Below, piece by piece: positions 3,382 through 42,552 of a stretch of DNA of 43,458 bases (within the stretch, counting starts at the first letter, position 1; each line of letters begins with the position of its first letter). The DNA is from a virus. The position numbers and the translations under genes are program-made. The stretch is from the IMG/VR virus record IMGVR_UViG_3300042503_001006, positions 1 to 43,458 of that record. The stretch is one strand, 5' to 3'. Under the pieces are notes generated by a model, which was given only the letters and a program-made list of their open reading frames with translations, made no database searches and was not told where the DNA came from.

Positions 3382-3882
3382 TTACATGCGAGCGAACTCG
3401 CCATGCAGCTCAACAACCATCCTCTCGCGCACCGACTTCGCCTCCTCCAAAGTCGCAAACCAATCACGCCAAACAATGCGGCCACCAGAGCGAACGGCGG
3501 CGCAAAACTTGTCGCCCTTCTTCCACACGCCTTTCACGCCGACAGTGTTGTTGCGCTGGTTTTTTCGGTTCCGCTGATTTTCAGCCGCCGTCGCCTCACG
3601 CAAATTGCAGATGCGATTATCCAGCGGGTCGCCGTTGATGTGGTCGATGTGCTCTACAGGCCAGCGGCCATGGCAGTAAAACCACGCAAGGCGGTGGACG
3701 CGAACCTTTACGCCGAGAACTTTAATCCGGTAGCCGGTGATCTCCCCGTCGCGGTTGTTGCGGCGCATCGGGTCAAGGTAAGCGGCGCGGCCGTTCGGCC
3801 AAGTAAAAACACCCGTGTGAGGGTCGTAAAAAATCGCTTTGACCAAAGCGGCAGGTGAAATATCGGGATTGTTAGCCTTCAT
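3382..3882 (-). CDS. HNH homing-type endonuclease with AP2-like C-terminal region
   Basis: 166 residues from ATG 3882. The HNH core is visible at about residues 65-110: VHRLAWFY, then VEHIDHINGDPLDNR and NLREAT..ENQRN, giving the His-Asp/His-Asn pattern of HNH_3 family nucleases. The C-terminus (GVKGVWKKGDKFCAAV ... WFATLEEAK) matches the small beta-sheet DNA-binding AP2-like repeat commonly joined to HNH in phage homing enzymes. It is free-standing, sitting between the early region and the tail-fibre genes, as expected for a self-inserting endonuclease gene. A longer TTG-started form (3927) is possible. The ATG overlaps the stop of a 24-codon ORF. Its cleavage target cannot be deduced; the group I intron allele of the capsid gene is one candidate. 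Confidence 0.85.
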   Translation of the reverse strand: MKANNPDISPAALVKAIFYDPHTGVFTWPNGRAAYLDPMRRNNRDGEITGYRIKVLGVKVRVHRLAWFYCHGRWPVEHIDHINGDPLDNRICNLREATAAENQRNRKNQRNNTVGVKGVWKKGDKFCAAVRSGGRIVWRDWFATLEEAKSVRERMVVELHGEFARM

Positions 3883-3953
3883 CCGAGCACCATCGGTTCG
3901 AGGGTTAGAGGCCGGTAAGCGCGCCAACGCTCGCCGGTCTCGGCCTCATACAC
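3879..3953 (-). CDS. Short coupled ORF upstream of the HNH gene (24 aa)
   Basis: GTG at 3953 opens a 24-codon frame (YEAETGERWRAYRPLTLEP...) whose TGA overlaps the HNH start as ATGA. An AACGAGG sequence lies about nine bases before the GTG. It may be a leader peptide or remnant that lets ribosomes reach the HNH start, which lacks a good Shine-Dalgarno sequence of its own. Composition looks protein-like but the evidence is only start, coupling and ribosome-binding site. Confidence 0.35.
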   Translation of the reverse strand: MYEAETGERWRAYRPLTLEPMVLG

Positions 3954-4214: not shown

Positions 4215-4457
4215 CTACTGTGGCTGGTTTTGTGTCATGCGCTGGATCTCTGCGTCCAGCTCCGAGGCCGACATCTCGGTCAGGCTCTTGGTCGCGAGCG
4301 CGTCGGCCACGCTGTTGCGCCCGATCATGGCTGTGATTTCTGCAAGTGTTCGCGCAGCAGCCGCCTTTGCCGCTGCTGGCGCATCCGGATCACGGCAGAC
4401 GCCCTCAAGAGTGTCGATCGCCAACTGCTTGATTTCATTGATTTCTGACGCACTCAT
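4215..4457 (-). CDS. Small helical protein, unknown; possible terminase small-subunit-like
   Basis: 80 residues, ATG 4457. The sequence is strongly helical: EINEIKQLAIDTLEG, then PDAPAAAKAAAARTLAEIT, then LTEMSASELDAEIQRM. The alanine-rich RTLAE segment resembles helix-rich segments of small DNA-packaging or DNA-binding proteins. In a joined-end map it lies upstream of the late genes, where a small terminase subunit would be expected, but I cannot identify a helix-turn-helix and do not assign the function. Confidence 0.6.
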   Translation of the reverse strand: MSASEINEIKQLAIDTLEGVCRDPDAPAAAKAAAARTLAEITAMIGRNSVADALATKSLTEMSASELDAEIQRMTQNQPQ

Positions 4458-7855: not shown

Positions 7856-8277
7856 TGGTTGTTCTCCGGCAGTGGCGGTTCAAAATAGTCGCGCATGAAT
7901 TTTGCGTATTCGAGGAGGAAGTCTTCCAGCAGGAGCTGCAGCTTCTCCTCCTTATTCAATCGTTCGAGCACACTTCCGAACTTGTCTTTGTCCAGCTCGG
8001 TGAGGTTGCGGACGCCCTCATCCCACATGGCGCCCATGAAGGCGTCGAGGAATCCGCCGACAGTTTCTCCCTTGCCCTTTTCGATGGCTCGCCTTTCAGC
8101 GTTGGTGAGGTCTGATCTTTTCATTCTTGAAATCCTTGCGCCGAGCGAAACACAATGTCGGCAGAGCCAATAAGTTGAGCTGACATCTCGGCCCGGCATA
8201 AATCCCGTCGGGCCAGCTTCCCGACCACACGCAGAGCATGTGATCGGGACGCGTGATTGCTTGCCGATGAGCTTCAT
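7852..8277 (-). CDS. Zinc-ribbon-like phage protein resembling DUF6511
   Basis: 141 residues. The N-terminus has ITCSACGREAG and YWLCRHCVSL, two Cys pairs that could bind one zinc. The middle (ERRAIEKGKGETVGGFLDAF) and the helical C-terminus resemble the small DUF6511 proteins common in phages of Alphaproteobacteria; that match is from memory. Start and stop both overlap neighbours (ATGA), so it belongs to the replication operon. No function is known. Confidence 0.6.
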   Translation of the reverse strand: MKLIGKQSRVPITCSACGREAGPTGFMPGRDVSSTYWLCRHCVSLGARISRMKRSDLTNAERRAIEKGKGETVGGFLDAFMGAMWDEGVRNLTELDKDKFGSVLERLNKEEKLQLLLEDFLLEYAKFMRDYFEPPLPENNQ

Positions 8278-8831
8278 TGAAAGTCGTATGCGAGGACGGC
8301 CCTGTCATGTGACGCTTGAGCCCTCGACCTTCTGTTTCTCGTTTGCTCTGTGGCCGTAGCCCATTTGCAATTCTCGGGCGTGTAGTTGCCGTTCACGTCA
8401 ATGCGATCGATTGAGTATGCTTTACTCGGCCTCTCGCCCATGTCGTCGAGGAAGTTTTGGAATTCGCTCCACCTCTCGCAGACAGATATGCCGCGACCAC
8501 CATAGTCGACGTAGCTTGTGGCGTTGGGATTATTGCAGCGAGACAACATCGAAGCCCACGACACATAGGTAAGAGAACATCCGCCTTCTCGGCTCGTGTT
8601 TCCATGCTTGTGGTTTCGTGCAGCCGCCTTGCTAGAGGCGACTTCCGAATTCCAACACCCACATGATTTGCTGCGGCCATTCGTAACGTGATTGCCTTGG
8701 ACGACTTTCTCGGTTCCACATTCACAGCGGCAGAGGTATCTGCGCTGACCGGCGTTCCCGTTCTCAGCCCTTGACAGGATTGTCCACCTGAAGTGCTGCT
8801 GACCTGTGAGGTCATCATTCTTGAATACCAT
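8274..8831 (-). CDS. HNH/homing-endonuclease-like protein with Cys-rich N-terminus
   Basis: 185 residues from ATG 8831, preceded by GAGGAGAGG; the longer open frame to 9029 is an artefact of overlap with the methyltransferase gene. It shows the typical order of a widespread phage family: a zinc-type YLCRCECGTE...SCGCWN, then YVSWASMLSRCNNPN, YGGRGISVCERW, FLDDMG, and a C-terminal SIDRIDVNGNYTPENCKWATATEQTRNRR. These proteins are usually annotated as HNH endonucleases or homing-type DNA-binding proteins. It sits between the methyltransferase and the DUF6511-like gene, with only a base between stop and start on one side and an ATGA overlap on the other, suggesting neat insertion into an operon junction. 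Confidence 0.75.
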   Translation of the reverse strand: MVFKNDDLTGQQHFRWTILSRAENGNAGQRRYLCRCECGTEKVVQGNHVTNGRSKSCGCWNSEVASSKAAARNHKHGNTSREGGCSLTYVSWASMLSRCNNPNATSYVDYGGRGISVCERWSEFQNFLDDMGERPSKAYSIDRIDVNGNYTPENCKWATATEQTRNRRSRAQASHDRAVLAYDFQ

Positions 8832-8832
8832 G

Positions 8833-9363
8833 TCACCTCTCCTCAAAATGATAAGCAAGAGACGGAGACCCTCTATGTTGCCAGTCAAATAAATACCACG
8901 CGTGATTGAAAGACGGAGAGCCCTTGCTGTCCTCGATCCAGCGGATGCGCTTTGTGAGCACAAGCTTCTTCGCGAACGCCGCGTGATTGGAGAACAGGTG
9001 GCGGCGCGTCTTCGCGTGATCGAAGTCACAGCGCAGCAGCATCGCGACGAATCCGGACTGCGCCATTGTTAGCTCAAGCGCGTGCTCGATGAACTCTTGC
9101 GCGATCGAGTAAGGCGGGTTCGTGATGATGGCGTCTCCGCCATATCCCTGCGTCGAGAAGAAGTCTTCTCCGCTCTGGATGTCAGTGCCGCCGACAGAAT
9201 GTGTGCGCGACAACTCGGCGACCATCTTCCCAGACCCACACGCCGGCTCCCAGATGTTCCGCACACGCTCGGGAATGTGCGGGACAAGCGCGCGCGTCGC
9301 CCACGCCGGTGTCTCATATTGATCGAACGCGACGCGTTCATATCCACTCTCACGCTGGCTCAT
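8833..9363 (-). CDS. DNA methyltransferase, probable N6-adenine type
   Basis: 176 residues. SAM-binding motif region: NIWEPACGSGKMVAEL (motif I). Catalytic motif IV is NPPYS (AIITNPPYSIAQEFIEHAL), typical of adenine-N6 methyltransferases. YDQYETPAWATRAL-type sequence at the N-terminus (VAFDQYETPAWATRAL) occurs in phage Dam-like enzymes. No target-recognition domain is obvious in this short protein. The ATG overlaps the preceding stop as ATGA. Probable role: modify phage DNA against host restriction or mark replicating DNA. Specificity cannot be read from the sequence. Confidence 0.8.
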   Translation of the reverse strand: MSQRESGYERVAFDQYETPAWATRALVPHIPERVRNIWEPACGSGKMVAELSRTHSVGGTDIQSGEDFFSTQGYGGDAIITNPPYSIAQEFIEHALELTMAQSGFVAMLLRCDFDHAKTRRHLFSNHAAFAKKLVLTKRIRWIEDSKGSPSFNHAWYLFDWQHRGSPSLAYHFEER

Positions 9364-10018: not shown

Positions 10019-10343
10019 TCTTCTCTCCCAGATAAGCGGCGCGGGCGGCTCTCCATAACGAATAGTCCACAGGATACGGCGGCTCAAACGGGCCTTCGGC
10101 TTTATCCGCCTTGTCAGCAAACGGCTTCAGCGCCGCTTTAAGTTCCGCGATGCGGGCGCGGGCTGTCTTGTATTCGCTGTGCATCATGTCAGCTTCTTTA
10201 CGCAAGTCAGCGATACGCTTCTCTTGGCTACGGATTAAACTCATCGCCTGATGACATGCACCGGCTTCACCCGTGTAGCCCTTGGCGTTTAGCCAGTCTT
10301 CGACATTCGCGAGGTCGGGATAGGTGTTAAAGAAGTCAGTCAT
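10011..10343 (-). CDS. Hypothetical helical protein (tandem paralogue pair)
   Basis: 110 residues from ATG 10343, which has an AGGAGA site eight bases before it and overlaps the upstream stop (TGATG). A coiled-coil-like middle (SLIRSQEKRIADLRKEADMM) is followed by the shared KAALKPFADKAD...SLWRAARAAYLGE ending. It pairs with the gene immediately downstream. No known domain. Confidence 0.65.
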   Translation of the reverse strand: MTDFFNTYPDLANVEDWLNAKGYTGEAGACHQAMSLIRSQEKRIADLRKEADMMHSEYKTARARIAELKAALKPFADKADKAEGPFEPPYPVDYSLWRAARAAYLGEKND

Positions 10344-10639
10344 CACCAATGTCTCCTATGTCTGCGCATGTGCCGCCACCTGCGATGGCGCGGCTTTTGT
10401 GTCTCATCCGCGTTAGTTGATTCCGGTTTAGTTTCATTTTCAGCAGAATTTGAAACACAAGCCTCCTTCACGATTGTCACATGCTCGATCGGTGGTGGCG
10501 GCTTGAGGACGTATGCTGTCGCCACCTTCGTCATCACGCGCTCCACACCGCAGCCGGTTACGATCGGCGCCGGGCTGTAGACCACGGTCATGATGGCGCC
10601 GGCGGCAATGCCGCCAGCAAGCCAGATCAGACCACGCAT
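10343..10639 (-). CDS. Small membrane-anchored protein with basic tail
   Basis: 98 residues. The N-terminus LIWLAGGIAAGAIMTVVY is a single transmembrane or signal-anchor segment, the middle carries VLKPPPPIEHVTIV, and the C-terminus is very basic (RHRRWRHMRRHRRHW). The arrangement could be a membrane-anchored protein with a nucleic-acid or phospholipid-binding tail. It overlaps both neighbours and lies among DNA-metabolism genes. Function unknown. Confidence 0.6.
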   Translation of the reverse strand: MRGLIWLAGGIAAGAIMTVVYSPAPIVTGCGVERVMTKVATAYVLKPPPPIEHVTIVKEACVSNSAENETKPESTNADETQKPRHRRWRHMRRHRRHW

Positions 10640-17758: not shown

Positions 17759-17797
17759 TTGCCCTGTGAATAATTTCGGCGTATGGCTATGCGCATA
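17759..17797 (+). promoter_or_regulatory. Rightward promoter and operator of the CI-like repressor
   Basis: TTGCCC (17759), 17-bp spacer, TATGGC (17782). An operator-like TATGG-CTATGC-GCATA (17782-17797) overlaps the -10 and contains the palindrome TATGCGCATA. This would allow autoregulation. The -10 and -35 are weaker than those of the other promoters here. Confidence 0.55.
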
Positions 17798-17821
17798 AAT
17801 ATAAAAATCCGGAGAAAAAGC

Positions 17822-18445
17822 ATGATAACCATCGATAAAATAAAGGAGTTAATGAACGAGCGCGGGTGGTCTCAGATCGACCTGGCCGAGATATGCAACG
17901 TGTCTCAGCCGACCGTCTCAAGGTGGCTCAAGGGGACGACACCAGACCCCGTCCAGCAAGAACGGCTGTCGAGCCTGATTCGCGAAGGCGACGACAGAAT
18001 GTTCCTAGTCAAACCAGACCAATCATTGTTCCGCCCTGATAAGGGCGACCTAAAAATATATGACTCTCAAGAAAGGAGAGCTGGGGAAATGTTCATAGAT
18101 ATGCAGAAACCGCGGTTTGCCCCCGCGCCGTGGTTTATTGGCGATTCTGAAAACTGCTTTGTTGTTATGGTGTCTGGCGAGACCATGGCTCCGGCGTATC
18201 GTCCGGGGGAATACGCCATCTCCAATGCCAAGCTTCCGCAGATCAGGAACCGCGACCATATCTTCATCAGGCAAGACGCTGATGGGGAGACACGAGCCGT
18301 AATCAGGCTGTTGGTGGCTTGGGATGACGAGACATGGACTGTCGAGACATACAATCCGCCCAAGAACGGGCCGAAGACGACCGTCCTGCAGAGGGATGAG
18401 TGGGGCCAAGCGCATAGAATTGTTGGAAAATACGAAGCCGCATAA
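17822..18445 (+). CDS. CI/LexA-like phage repressor with S24-type C-terminal domain
   Basis: 207 residues from ATG 17822, with GGAG seven bases upstream. The N-terminal HTH is IKELMNERGWSQIDLAEICNVSQPTVSRWLKG (about residues 5-36). The C-terminal half resembles the LexA/CI S24 peptidase fold (NCFVVMVSGETMAPAYRPGEYAIS ... HIFIRQDADGETRAVIRLLVAWDDETW). The usual catalytic Ser motif (G-D-S-M) reads G-E-T-M, and the position of the catalytic Lys (usually V-K-R-L) reads VIRL. It may therefore lack SOS self-cleavage. It is the probable maintainer of lysogeny, binding the TATGC-N6-GCATA operators. Confidence 0.88.
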   Translation: MITIDKIKELMNERGWSQIDLAEICNVSQPTVSRWLKGTTPDPVQQERLSSLIREGDDRMFLVKPDQSLFRPDKGDLKIYDSQERRAGEMFIDMQKPRFAPAPWFIGDSENCFVVMVSGETMAPAYRPGEYAISNAKLPQIRNRDHIFIRQDADGETRAVIRLLVAWDDETWTVETYNPPKNGPKTTVLQRDEWGQAHRIVGKYEAA

Positions 18446-19218: not shown

Positions 19219-19553
19219 GCGCGCGTATTCGCACAGAATCCGCCGCCCTGATGCTTGGCGTGTCCCCGCGGACGGTTCAGGGTATGGCCGCCCGCGGAGA
19301 ACTCCCCGGTGCAGCGAAGATCGGCGCCACATGGACTTATGACGCCGACAAAATCGAAAACTACATCGCCCGGAGGGAAGCAGAGTGCCAGAGAACCTTA
19401 CCAAACGTGGAGAGACGTGGTGTCTGTCCGTCATCATCAAAGGCAAACGCTATAGAGAGTCGCTTCACACAAGCAATCTCAAAGATGCGTGCCGGCTCCG
19501 CGACAAGCGGATCAAAGAAATCACGGCAGCAGTCCGCCACGGGGAGCGCGTAA
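19215..19553 (+). CDS. Excisionase-like HTH protein overlapping the integrase
   Basis: 112 residues. ESAALMLGVSPRTVQGMAARGELPGAAKIGATWTYDADKIENYI is the MerR/AlpA-like winged HTH of phage excisionases: a recognition helix followed by the G-x-W-x-Y/F-D wing. The last 169 bp overlap the integrase in another frame, and the tail (KKSRQQSATGSA) is basic and probably flexible. It should bind attP and direct recombination toward excision. The overlap couples Xis and Int expression. Confidence 0.75.
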   Translation: MRARIRTESAALMLGVSPRTVQGMAARGELPGAAKIGATWTYDADKIENYIARREAECQRTLPNVERRGVCPSSSKANAIESRFTQAISKMRAGSATSGSKKSRQQSATGSA

Positions 19554-20407
19554 TCCCATGGAAGGAAGCCGTCGCAGAATGGGCCGAGCACATCAACGGC
19601 CAGCTTGGGGAAGCAACCCTGAAGCGTTACGCGATCTCGCTCGCGCTTGTGACGCCCTATTTCGAGCAGCTCGGAATCCACCAGATCTCTGGCGCCGCGA
19701 TCTCTGGGTTCATCGCGGAACGCCGAAAGTCCGGCGCCACCCCGGCCACCATCCGTCGTGACCTGACCGCCGTCTCCAATGTCCTCAAATACGCCGAGGC
19801 GATGGAGTGGTGCGAAGGGAACCCCACCCTGTCGAAGCGTCAGCTCCTCGTCGAGCGTCGCGAGCCGATCACCCTGCCCCGTCACGACGAGATCCGTCGC
19901 GTGGTGGAGGCCGCCGGCCACCGCTTCGGCGCCATGATCCTCGCGGCGTGGCATACGGGATGCAGGCAGGGCGAGCTGGTCGACGCGTTCTGGGACGACC
20001 TCGACCTCTCTGCGGGGCTCCTAACGGTCATCGGTAAGGGCCGCAAGCGTCGCGTGATCGAGCTGTCGCCGGAGGCGATCGCCGTGTTCCGGAATCATCC
20101 GCGCACGCTCAACTCGAAACACATCTTCTGCAACGCGCTCGGCCAGCCGTTCTCGCAGGCGTCCAGCGACTTCGCATACATCCGCAGCGGCGTCGACGGC
20201 GTGACGTTTCGCTTCCACGATCTGCGCCACCTGTTCGCGGTCGAGACGCTCCAGAGCGGACGCATGGGGATATACGACCTGCAGCAACATCTCGGTCACA
20301 CGAGCGTGAAGACGACGGAGATCTACTTGGCCTTCCTGTCGCCCGAGCAGGAGCGCACGGCCAAGCAGCCACAAAACCTGCCACACCGCAGGGCCAACTA
20401 CCTGTAA
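19385..20407 (+). CDS. int: Tyrosine recombinase integrase
   Basis: 340 residues from GTG 19385, preceded by AGGGAA. The N-terminal arm-binding part (ENLTKRGETWCLSVIIKGKRYRESL) and a core-binding SAM-like domain (WKEAVAEWAEH...YAEAMEW) precede the catalytic domain. Catalytic residues are visible: Arg in AAWHTGCRQGEL, Lys in GKGRKR, His-x-x-Arg in FHDLRHLF, His in HLGHTS and the nucleophile Tyr in TTEIYLAF. The attP core is 29 bp downstream. It integrates the phage into a tRNA-Ser gene and, with the upstream Xis-like protein, excises it. Confidence 0.93.
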   Translation: MPENLTKRGETWCLSVIIKGKRYRESLHTSNLKDACRLRDKRIKEITAAVRHGERVIPWKEAVAEWAEHINGQLGEATLKRYAISLALVTPYFEQLGIHQISGAAISGFIAERRKSGATPATIRRDLTAVSNVLKYAEAMEWCEGNPTLSKRQLLVERREPITLPRHDEIRRVVEAAGHRFGAMILAAWHTGCRQGELVDAFWDDLDLSAGLLTVIGKGRKRRVIELSPEAIAVFRNHPRTLNSKHIFCNALGQPFSQASSDFAYIRSGVDGVTFRFHDLRHLFAVETLQSGRMGIYDLQQHLGHTSVKTTEIYLAFLSPEQERTAKQPQNLPHRRANYL

Positions 20408-33476: not shown

Positions 33477-34937
33477 TCAATCCGCATCGGTCGCCATCGT
33501 GTAATGAATTGCAGCGTTTGAGAGCGTCGCCGGCCCGGTCACGTTGCAATAAAAGCGCAGGCTCATGTGAGACGCGTAGCCCTGCAGCTCGTAGCGGCCC
33601 TTGTTCCAAGTCGGGGCCGTGACCGTCCCCACCATCTCCTCGGCCTCCTGCTGGTCGAAGTTGTAGCCAATCTTGACGTCCCATTCTCCGGTGGCCGTGA
33701 CGTCGAGGGCTTGGAACATCTTCGCGTGGCCGGGCTTGCCGCCGTCGAGATACGGCAGGCGCACCTCCACCGGACAGTCGTCCCACACCTCCTGCGAGAC
33801 GCCGCCGAACAGGTAGAGGTCGTCGCCGGAGCGGATGAAGACGCGGTCGCCGCAGGAGACGATGTTGTCGATGTTGAAGGGCGTCGTGTAGACGCTCCAC
33901 GCCGTGATGCCGGGTCCGGGGAAATAAGACAGGACGAGGATCTCGCGCGGGAACGCCATCCAGAAGCGACCGATGACGGGCTCCAAGATCGAGCGCGCGT
34001 TGTAGAGGAAGTTATTCGAGCCGTAGCGCTTGGGCAGATAGCGGACGTAGTCGTCGACGGGCGAGCCAATGTCGGAGACAGCGGCGGAATTGGAGATGTC
34101 TCGGGCCTTCAGAGACCTGATCCCCGACGACGAAAGAAAGAGGATGTCTCCCGAGCCATACTGCTGGATCGACCAAGGGGCGCGGGTTCCCGTCGCCCGC
34201 AAGACCTGACCCAGCGCGTTCTGCTTGGGGTCGGAGACAACGGCCCACATCTGGGTCGTGTATTCGGACATGATGGCGAGGCGGTCGTAGTAAATCTCGA
34301 CGCCCTGGAGCTTCGCGGACTGACCTTCCTGCAGCGAGATGTTGATGAAGCCGCAGCCCGTGCGCGTCGTGTCGTTCGGGTCAGTCGCCGGTTCCCAGAG
34401 CTTCGGATTTTCGATCACTGAGAAGCGCAGATACTTGTCGCCGACCGCATACATCTTCGACTTGTAGGAGCGGACGTAGAGCCCCATGCCGGAGCCCTCG
34501 GTCTCGACATAGACCGGCGCCGCGCCGGTGGCCGCGTCGTCGTAGTAGTGCGGGTTCTTGGCCTTCACCGTCGCCCCGGCGGCGTCGTAGCCGGCGAAAT
34601 ACAGCTTGCCATCGAACACATCGAAGTCGGTCTGCACCAGCGTCGGCGAGGCGTTCGGGATTTTGTCGACGCGCAGCGTCACGTCCGTCAGGCCGGCGAT
34701 CGTCGGCGGCGCCACGTCTACGTTGCGCGAGAACATCACCAGCGTGCTGCCGATCGATGCGAGCCCAAAGGTGCCGGCGACATTCGCGACCTTCACGAAG
34801 GCGCGACGCTTCTGGATTTCGCCGCCGGGGGTGATGGCGGCGTTGACCAGCTTCGTCAGCGTCCCGGCGGGAGCTGTCAGCACGCTCTTTCGAACGTCGA
34901 GGCCGGCCTTAAAATTTTCGACGAGGAAGTAGGGCAC
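33477..34937 (-). CDS. Tail-hub / tail tubular or DNA-stabilisation protein
   Basis: 486 residues from GTG 34937, with AAGGA upstream. The N-terminus FLVENFKAGLDVRKSVLTAP, then LTKLVNAAITPGGEIQKRRAF, is typical of podovirus tail-hub proteins (P22 gp10 and T7 gp12-like group). The rest is beta-rich: IGSTLVMFSRNV, SYKSKMYAVGDKYLRF, WSIQQYGSGDILFLSSSG. It follows the connector gene by nine bases. The protein probably forms the tail nozzle attached below the connector. Assignment is by position and pattern. Confidence 0.75.
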   Translation of the reverse strand: MPYFLVENFKAGLDVRKSVLTAPAGTLTKLVNAAITPGGEIQKRRAFVKVANVAGTFGLASIGSTLVMFSRNVDVAPPTIAGLTDVTLRVDKIPNASPTLVQTDFDVFDGKLYFAGYDAAGATVKAKNPHYYDDAATGAAPVYVETEGSGMGLYVRSYKSKMYAVGDKYLRFSVIENPKLWEPATDPNDTTRTGCGFINISLQEGQSAKLQGVEIYYDRLAIMSEYTTQMWAVVSDPKQNALGQVLRATGTRAPWSIQQYGSGDILFLSSSGIRSLKARDISNSAAVSDIGSPVDDYVRYLPKRYGSNNFLYNARSILEPVIGRFWMAFPREILVLSYFPGPGITAWSVYTTPFNIDNIVSCGDRVFIRSGDDLYLFGGVSQEVWDDCPVEVRLPYLDGGKPGHAKMFQALDVTATGEWDVKIGYNFDQQEAEEMVGTVTAPTWNKGRYELQGYASHMSLRFYCNVTGPATLSNAAIHYTMATDAD

Positions 34938-36133: not shown

Positions 36134-37469
36134 TTACGCGATGTCGATAACGAGCGAGCTGTTGAGCTGCTTGGCGACCATCTGGCCGGTCGACGTGATC
36201 GAGCGATACAGGATGAACTTGTCGGCGGGACGCGCCGGCGTGTGATCCTTGCGCCACTCGTTGTCCATGGCCTCAAGGAAGATCGCGTTCGTGTCGAGCC
36301 AGTAGCAACGCTTCTGATGACCAAGGTCATCGAGAGTCGGATCATACTGGAAGGTCACGTTCATGAACTTCAGAGCGCCGATGGAGACATCCGTCGAACC
36401 ATCGAACCCGGCGACCGTGTAGATGCCGTTCGCGCGCAGCTCTTTCTCCATCGCATCGAGGAAGGACGAACCGCAGACCGCGAAGTTCGGCTGGCCGCCG
36501 TAACGCACGAGCTGGCGATACTCATACTGCAGGGTCTGCAGCAGAGCGCCACCATCAGCGACGTTCGACGTCACCGCGCCGCCGCCGAGCGACGGATCGG
36601 TGTTTGCCGCGCAACGAGCCCTATTTCTCCACCATTTATGGGTTGCACGGTCGAGACCGCCGGTCGTTCCGACAGCCGGGTTCTCCAGAATGATCGAAGC
36701 CAGACCAGACAGAGCCTTCGGGTCGGCGGTGCCGTCACCGTAGGCGAGGTTGTTCATGCTTCGCGCATACTGCTCACCAAGGGCGAACAGCTTGTCCTCG
36801 AACAGGTTGACCAGCATGGTCATCTCGCGCTGCGAGTGATTGCTGGTGCGCTCGCCATTCGTGTCTACGACACTAATGCCATCAATCTTCACCGATGTTC
36901 ACGCCAGATCGCTAATTCCGGCGCCGCCTTTCGGCTGCTGCATGTTTCCATGCAGAGCAGACTATATCTTGACCCCAGAGGGGCCGCCCCCATTTCGGTG
37001 CGCTTGCACCTACGAGCTCTCGCTCTAGTCGTTGAACCTTCCCTTGCGGGCTTGGCTGCTGATTTTCTTCGGCACGACCCGGTCAGAGTTCCCAGCAATT
37101 AAAGGGCTTGTCATCGCACTATTGCTAGTGCGCGGAGCTGAAAACCAACTCGGTATGCGTGAGCGTCAGACCAATGTGATGTTCGCGCCAAGGATAGTTC
37201 ACACGCTTGATGTTCGACGGGGTGAAGAACCCGACGGAATCGCTGTGCGTAAAGCCCTTGACGACATCGTTGCCCGAGCCGTCGCCGAAGTCGCCTTCGA
37301 CCGCGATCGAGATGTCACCCTTGCCACCAGGGAACGTCTTCTTACCGCGCTCCAGCTTGTCCCAGAGAGGACGCTTCTGGAGAGACTGCTTAAAGGCGTC
37401 TCCTTGGTTGAAGTAGAAGTCCAACGCCGCATTGGCGATGTTGGCAATTGCCGTAGTTGTAAAAGCCAT
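36134..37469 (-). CDS. Major capsid protein, interrupted by a group I intron
   Basis: Two exons: 37469-37148 and 36891-36134, joined in frame to give 359 residues. Exon 1 encodes 107 residues from AFTTTAIANIANAALDFYFN to REHHIGLTLTHTE. The joined junction reads THTE-L-KIDG, with the Leu codon split 1/2 by the intron. Exon 2 continues SVVDTNGERTSNHSQREMTML and ends SLVIDIA. The downstream helix region (LVNLFEDKLFALGEQYARSM) and later strands suit the HK97-like coat fold, by size and place between scaffold and connector rather than by matching. Unspliced, exon 1 would end in a 114-residue stub; the exon 2 GTG could start only a partial product. Confidence 0.88.
36892..37147 (-). ncRNA. Group I self-splicing intron in the major capsid gene (256 nt, no ORF)
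   Basis: Conserved core elements in order: P AATTGCTGGGAA (37100-37089), Q AATCAGCAGCCAAG (37064-37051), R GTTCAACGACTAGA (37037-37024) and S AAGATATAGTC (36970-36960). P4 (TGCTG/CAGCA) and P7 (GACTA/TAGTC) pair. P1 is GAGTTGG with TCAGCTC, loop TTT, putting the U-G wobble exactly at the 5' splice site after exon base 37148. The 3' end is G 36892, and P10 forms between the exon 2 start TGAAG and intron TTTCA. P2 (CGCACT/AGTGCG), P6 (CCC-GCAA-GGG) and P9 (CTGCATG-GAAA-CATGCAG, 36955-36938) are clear. P3 and P8 were not fully traced. No endonuclease ORF fits in it. Confidence 0.92.
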
Positions 37470-40990: not shown

Positions 40991-42552
40991 CACCATCCTC
41001 CAGATTTTGAGGCTCGCTCTTTTTCAGCGGCGCGGGTTTCTTTCTTGATCCATCCCAGCGTGTATGGCGCCGGGCCTTTATCGATCGCCTTCGTCGGCCG
41101 GGCGCGCACCTGCAGCGCCATGCCGAGACCGAGATACGCGATGGCGTCGACGAGATCGTCGTGGACGCCGTGCGGAAATTTCAGGAGCTGGTCGCGCGCT
41201 TCCTGAAACCACGGCGCATAGCTAGGGAAGTAAACCTTTCCCATAGACATTCGCGCACGGATAGACTGCGCGCGCGATTGCTTGTCGAGAACGGGGACAA
41301 TCTCGTCCATCGAGCAGTAGATCCCGCGTTCGAGCTGTCGCTTGCGCAGGAATGGGCCGATCGACTTCGAGATGTGTCCTCGTTCAGCCCACCACATGAG
41401 CGGGCGATATTTTTCCATTAGGTCGATCATCTTTTCGACGACGACGTCGGCGTCCCAGCGTCCCCACTGGACGTCATCCATCACCCAGAGGTTGTCGTCC
41501 TGATCGACGCCGATCGGGATGATGCACGTCTTATCGCGATCCTGCTTGGTCGATACTGCATGATCCGACGCGACGTAAAAACGTAGCTGATCGCGAGGAG
41601 GGCGATCAGTAGGGCGAGTGTAGGTTCTAAGCTTGTCTGCATCGAAGAAGTTTCCCTTCTCTGGTGTCGGCGACCCTTGGTAGAGCGCCTGGAAGCCGCG
41701 CGGGTCAGCGTCGCGCAGCTCGTGCAGGTAAGAGACCGGGAAACGCTCCGGCCACAGCGCCTCGCCCTCCTTGCGGCCGAGGACGTCTTTGTCCTTGGCG
41801 ATCGCCGGGAGGTCGATGATCTTCCACTTCCTCGCCTCGGGAGCGGAGTAGCTGGGGTTCATCGGGTCTAAGCTGCGGCCCGTGAGGTCGTCTTCGTGCC
41901 AACGAGTCTGAATTAAAACGATGGCGCCCGTCGACGTCATGAGTCGCGTCTTCAAGACTTCGTTATACCACTTCCACAACTTCTCTCGCTTTGTCGGCGA
42001 GTCTGCGTCGTCGCGGTTTTTGATCGGGTCGTCGAGGATGATGAGCGCGGCGCCGCGGCCTGTGAGGGCTCCGCCGACGCCGGCGAGAAACACTTTGCCG
42101 CCCTCCTCTGTTTCAAGTCGATCGACCGATGCGGAGCCGGACTTCAGGCGCGTCTCGAATATCTGCTGGTAGAGGGGATCTTGGATCATCCCGCGGATGT
42201 CGCGACCGAAGTCTGCGGCGAAGCCCTCGTTATAGGTGGCGACGATCACGGACTTGTCCGGATTGCGCCCGAGATACCAGGCCGGGAACAGACGCGACGA
42301 GAGCTGGCTCTTGCCGTGTCGCGGTGGGCAGTTGATGATCAGTCTTTTGATCTTGCCGCTTTCAACTTGTTCGAGAGCAGCAGCAATGACGCGGTGATGA
42401 CGAGCAACCTGATACTCAGAGACATCCGGGTTTTCATAGTCGTCCTGATCCGGCATCATGAAACGCGCGAAGTCGACGAGGTCGTCGCGGGCGTTTAGGG
42501 CCGCGCGACGCCTCTTTAGTGCAAGCAAGTAGCGTTCTTCGTCAGGTGTCAT
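40990..42552 (-). CDS. terL: Terminase large subunit
   Basis: 520 residues. Packaging ATPase: RLIINCPPRHGKSQLSSR (Walker A), ALIILDDPI (Walker B; DD pair) and IVLIQTRWHEDDLTGR (motif III region). The C-terminal nuclease half includes RFYVASDHAVSTKQDRDKTC (first acidic residue), LWVMDDVQWGRWDADV and, near the end, HGVHDDLVDAIAYLG (final acidic pair). It is large subunit TerL that cuts and pumps DNA into heads. The start overlaps the stop of a 22-residue ORF (ATGA). A separate small subunit is not clearly identified. Confidence 0.93.
   Translation of the reverse strand: MTPDEERYLLALKRRRAALNARDDLVDFARFMMPDQDDYENPDVSEYQVARHHRVIAAALEQVESGKIKRLIINCPPRHGKSQLSSRLFPAWYLGRNPDKSVIVATYNEGFAADFGRDIRGMIQDPLYQQIFETRLKSGSASVDRLETEEGGKVFLAGVGGALTGRGAALIILDDPIKNRDDADSPTKREKLWKWYNEVLKTRLMTSTGAIVLIQTRWHEDDLTGRSLDPMNPSYSAPEARKWKIIDLPAIAKDKDVLGRKEGEALWPERFPVSYLHELRDADPRGFQALYQGSPTPEKGNFFDADKLRTYTRPTDRPPRDQLRFYVASDHAVSTKQDRDKTCIIPIGVDQDDNLWVMDDVQWGRWDADVVVEKMIDLMEKYRPLMWWAERGHISKSIGPFLRKRQLERGIYCSMDEIVPVLDKQSRAQSIRARMSMGKVYFPSYAPWFQEARDQLLKFPHGVHDDLVDAIAYLGLGMALQVRARPTKAIDKGPAPYTLGWIKKETRAAEKERASKSGGW

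Follow-up and report, generated by a model that had tools for sequence, protein, structure and literature searches.

What interrupts the major head (capsid) protein gene of a phage, and how could an insert that carries no endonuclease gene have come to lie there? Both questions are raised by a locus on the minus strand of IMG/VR virus record IMGVR_UViG_3300042503_001006, of which the whole analysed stretch of 43,458 nt is called the window here. A sequence-only reading had proposed a compact group I intron at this position, and we followed that proposal through covariance-model searches, comparison with related viral contigs, covariation analysis and a survey of intron host genes.

The interrupted head protein gene and its insert

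With the insert retained, the capsid frame entered at 37469 terminates 7 codons beyond 37148, and the frame picks up at 36891. Joining the two exons (322 + 758 nt) affords 359 sense codons and a stop, as the sequence-only reading had claimed for removal of the 256 nt, and the joined translation equals the protein encoded by empty-site alleles in four other viral contigs (L002-L005). The features of the locus are as follows, with L095 denoting a related phage that carries a second intron.

36134..36891, minus strand: head protein gene, exon 2, 758 nt, remainder of codon 108 through codon 359 and the stop; identical 359 aa in L002-L005
36892..37147, minus strand: group I intron, 256 nt; RF00028 match, exact absence in L002-L005, covariation
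37148..37469, minus strand: major head (capsid) protein gene, exon 1, 322 nt, comprising codons 1-107 and the first base of codon 108; ORF list, joined translation
37135..37151, minus strand: P1 region, 7 bp between exon GAGU^UGG and guide UCAGCUC, the splice site marked by U.G; covaries with GGGU/GCCC of L095
36887..36891, minus strand: exon-2 half of P10, UGAAG, partnered by the intron guide UUUCA; covaries with UGACG/UGUCA of L095
36892, minus strand: terminal G of the intron (omega-G), from the sequence

Identity of the interrupted gene was assessed through its relatives. The L095 orthologue is assigned to a PHROG major head protein, and the orthologue in the closest isolate relative, Microcystis phage Mae-Yong1326-1 (head protein identity 60%), carries the annotation major capsid protein and is intronless (OP028995.1 36722-37798). 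A PDB sequence profile search returned no match. A structure model of the intact, intronless allele matched phage capsids of the HK97 fold in Foldseek with an E value of 5e-11, its mean pLDDT of 65 (moderate confidence) being safe for fold class only. The stretch that holds the intron site is among the best conserved in the capsid family, a position usual for introns. Elsewhere in the window, a CI-like repressor with a peptidase S24 domain (17783-18445) and a tyrosine integrase (19385-20407) are encoded, and the phage is for this reason probably temperate.

The covariance-model search suggested by the earlier reading was run with cmscan across the window, and the single Rfam match was RF00028 at 36938-37157 on the minus strand, scoring 72.3 bits (E 1.4e-16) against a gathering cut-off of 50 bits and thus bearing out the proposed intron class. 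The alignment covers model positions 1-253 of 253, corresponding to the whole core. The 7-bp P1 with its U-G pair, the terminal G and the 5-bp P10 described earlier are all visible in the sequence, with wobbles lengthening P10 (UGAAG/UUUCA) to 7 bp. Exon 1 ends in T37148, which contributes the U to the U.G pair of P1, and this pair is preserved in 10 of the 11 introns having letters at that position. The description of the insert as ORF-less likewise stands: its internal ORF (36889-37098) is of chance size at just 69 aa, and no endonuclease gene is recognised, 256 nt being too short to hold one. Judged by possession of its own endonuclease, the insert does not count as a mobile (homing) intron. 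We also considered an in-frame protein extension, but reading on from exon 1 meets stop codons in the insert and no frame runs through into exon 2, so this was rejected.

The fold was examined in an alignment of 12 related introns, for which RNAalifold gave a consensus of 54 pairs, 35 of them compensated by changes on both sides. Paired cells amounted to 96.4%, versus 34-43% when the partner strand was slid by 1-3 columns, and none of 500 shuffles reached the observed values. P7 (GACUA/UAGUC), P4 and most of P6 are invariant and hence uninformative by covariation. The region separating P7 from P3 holds two hairpins (helices 8 and 9) that do covary across the 12 introns; such P7.1/P7.2-like hairpins would suggest subgroup IA (IA2-like). 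Overall, the 12-intron alignment supports a group I fold, and the 256-nt insert is very likely a spliced group I intron. In the late mRNA, the intron guide would pair with the end of exon 1 to form P1, an external guanosine would attack after U37148, and the freed exon 1 would then attack after G36892 with exon 2 aligned by P10, so that the ligated message would encode the 359-residue head protein.

Empty alleles and a sister intron

Comparison of the spliced protein with IMG/VR revealed 80 relatives with uninterrupted genes. The four contigs L002-L005 encode the same 359 residues and are about 99.6-99.9% identical to the window in flanking DNA on both sides, the sole break in the DNA alignment being the exact 256 nt. 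Because these contigs are near-identical yet without the intron, the insertion is a presence/absence polymorphism among sibling phages, and their lack of exactly these nucleotides provides independent proof of the intron boundaries, in agreement with the coordinates first proposed (36892-37147). By DNA alignment alone the edges are ambiguous by 2 nt, since each end has a TG; the placement is settled by the U.G and terminal-G rules, and the spliced product is unchanged under either.

All 11 nearest relatives lack a group I match, which was obtained in 1 of 32 relative records, namely L095 (IMGVR_UViG_3300032221_000094). This syntenic phage relative has a head protein with 66-72% identity and carries, in the orthologous gene, an ORF-less intron of 262 nt (10186-10447) that is 79% identical to the window intron over 238 nt. 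A maximum-likelihood tree of 38 cores grouped the two as sisters with UFBoot 99. The L095 insertion lies 21 nt (7 codons) upstream of the window site (ATT GGG T^TG ACG vs GAG T^TG AAG), and the two 9-nt sites are alike (GGGU^UGACG and GAGU^UGAAG, respectively). The L095 frame runs open from the intron into exon 2, and its spliced product of 367 residues aligns gap-free across the junction. Furthermore, the guides track their sites. At P1, the L095 exon GGGU is matched by GCCC and the window exon GAGU by GCUC; at P10, UGACG is matched by UGUCA and UGAAG by UUUCA. Distant homologues of the same head protein (L155, L103, L156 and L185) are interrupted by related introns elsewhere, near residues 57 and 252. 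We found no published description of the L095 intron. The sister introns at neighbouring sites may have arisen by transposition, reverse splicing or independent homing, and introns appear to have entered this family of head protein genes at four separate positions.

Routes of arrival

The DNA flanking the insertion holds a trace of how the intron may have been acquired. Relative to L002, the window differs by 16 SNPs in 5.9 kb, of which 8 lie within 87 nt of the insertion and are all silent.

36806..37148, minus strand: probable exon co-conversion tract, intron inside the span; 8 silent SNPs versus empty-site alleles (37148, 36884, 36875-36873, 36866, 36857, 36806)

These eight SNPs span the last base of exon 1 to position +86 of exon 2, with seven in exon 2, and the next ones occur about 2.3 kb downstream and about 4 kb upstream (versus L004). 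Base 37148 is T in the window and C in the empty alleles, a change that provides the U required for the U.G pair. One serine codon in the tract is AGT versus TCT, a switch hard to reach by single substitutions. Random SNP placement gives a value of about 1e-8 for the clump, which the assumption of uniform placement makes an overstatement of the case. Other dense SNP clumps versus near-identical siblings occur at 34419-34482 and, relative to L005, at 41221-41461, a pattern suggesting that short segments have recombined at other places in the structural region too. Since such clumps are not unique to the intron site, what carries the co-conversion argument is that the tract directly abuts the intron.

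Copying of flanking exon along with the intron is the expected trace of homing repair (PMC2988022, PMC3984707). As judged from these alleles, the SNP tract is probably exon co-conversion beside the intron, the support for this being good, not absolute, and its skew towards exon 2 would be in keeping with an enzyme that cuts or nicks there. During co-infection, a trans-acting endonuclease would very probably have cut or nicked an empty capsid gene, and repair would very probably have copied the intron and the adjoining 90 nt or so of exon 2 from a putative donor, a diverged phage bearing the intron. L095 has 4 of the 8 window alleles at tract positions and is not that donor. No donor with an intron at the exact window site emerged from IMG/VR with three intron-core or P9 patterns, and two more patterns gave zero matches. 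Neither capsid relatives nor the intron core pattern were found in bacterial genomes. We regard it as likely, from the alleles compared, that the intron was gained by a DNA homing route.

Arrival by reverse splicing into the capsid mRNA at a GRGU^UGAMG-like site, with subsequent reverse transcription and recombination, was weighed as a different origin. This route would be in keeping with L095, whose orthologous gene has the sister intron 21 nt away in a 9-nt sequence resembling the window site, and the presence of related introns at two places in one gene has been cited as circumstantial support for reverse splicing (PMC3984707). Reverse splicing by itself would leave exon bases unchanged, yet the window shows C->U at the last exon-1 base and another seven silent SNPs within the first 86 nt of exon 2. 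Because the tract resembles exon co-conversion, recent DNA-level acquisition is the likelier explanation and reverse splicing appears improbable for the window insertion, although it could explain an older shift between the L095 and window sites. A broader reading of homing joins both observations: the endonuclease-less intron homes in trans between phages, as the exon-2 conversion tract and the splice-site C->U would indicate, and has also moved between sites 21 nt apart, its guide re-adapting at P1 and P10. We advance this combination tentatively; if true, the capsid gene would offer a naturally occurring example in which transposition of a group I intron and retargeting of its guide can be caught.

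Could the gene instead be truly split, encoding proteins of 114 aa and 252 aa (the latter from GTG at 36892), with the 256 nt a decayed insertion? Start and stop codons are present in both ORFs, but the intron core is intact and its helices covary, P1 and P10 match the site, the remainder of the gene shows no frame damage, and excision restores exactly the protein that is identical in four relatives, which together make a split gene very unlikely. Least credible of all is an assembly chimera, for although the contig is a metagenome assembly and no second contig with an intron at the same site was found, its flanks are near-identical to sibling phages for kilobases on either side, its junction has well-formed group I features and an independent sister intron resides in the same gene on another contig (L095).

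Homing in trans calls attention to the free-standing endonuclease genes of the window.

3385..3927, minus strand: free-standing HNH endonuclease gene; PF13392 HNH_3, phrog_99
8277..9029, minus strand: second free-standing HNH endonuclease ORF; phrog_374

The true start of the second ORF is probably internal, because its 5' part overlaps a methyltransferase ORF. Both genes lie about 28 kb or more from the intron, and the window genome has no HNH gene near the capsid gene. Among the 32 relative records, many of them fragments, homologues of the first were detected in 1 and of the second in 8, all without the intron; in these records HNH homologues do not track the intron, and the contigs L002-L005 end before the HNH loci. 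An HNH gene does occur 1.2-1.7 kb downstream of the capsid gene in Mae-Yong1326-1, L024, L027 and L042, the Mae-Yong1326-1 gene (OP028995.1 35039-35569) being 1.2 kb downstream of the head protein gene. Free-standing endonucleases can move introns that have no working one of their own (PMC2988022, PMC3984707), and a capsid-adjacent HNH gene in a donor would be a plausible trans helper, which we note as a lead.

Capsid genes as intron hosts and comparison with known systems

To regard introns in capsid genes as rare would be an overstatement, given published cases (PMC3706429) and our surveys. Among the 73 non-redundant introns listed for the window core type (L082-L202), major head protein genes were the commonest host, with PHROG head families 267, 1328, 9953, 14242 and others represented. 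In a control survey of a different core type (L203-L322), capsid genes were again commonest among the 100 non-redundant introns listed, with PHROG 1328 in 11 and psbA in 10. Both sets of host-gene counts cover the matches listed only and derive from mechanically chosen exon fragments, and the counts of different families may overlap. A specialisation of this intron lineage for capsid genes is rejected, as among the matches listed the other core type likewise occurs most often in capsid genes. In both surveys the head protein genes fell into several unrelated PHROG families, and the matches listed also included genes for tail sheath, RNR, terminase, psbA and DNA polymerase as hosts. One SU10-like capsid gene (L111) has two closely spaced introns of the window core type (3592-3631 and 4242-4279), and an elongation factor Tu-like gene on a viral contig of 194 kb seems to be interrupted by a related intron (L144, 9880-9919). 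Capsid genes of uncultivated phages are often intron-split, so capsid surveys requiring an intact frame miss phages.

Several characterized systems resemble the window intron in part. T4 homing, including trans or collaborative homing, shows the co-conversion of flanking exon that is probable here (PMC2988022, PMC3984707); for the window intron the endonuclease is putative. Group I introns of the Staphylococcus Twort/812 type, some in tail genes, are the best-scoring annotated phage relatives of the L095 intron (72-73% over about 180 nt), but they reside in other genes and hosts and the match is limited to the core. The closest parallels come from Cluster J mycobacteriophages, in which splicing of a LittleE capsid intron and a BAKA/Optimus tail-gene intron was shown by RT-PCR (PMC3706429). 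Like the window intron, these interrupt phage structural genes, have intronless sister phages, and are preceded by U and end in G (PMC3706429). The LittleE insertion differs in its 819 bp and its endonuclease-like ORF as well as in phage and sequence; the BAKA intron is similarly ORF-less at 265 bp, and its insertion also replaces a C, but it lies in a tail gene and is of another phage and sequence (PMC3706429). Overall, the window intron is a known type of element with unusually good allelic evidence. Because the intron allele occurs alongside near-identical empty counterparts and a sister intron close by in the same gene, one can test directly how an intron spreads without its own endonuclease and how its guide follows the target.
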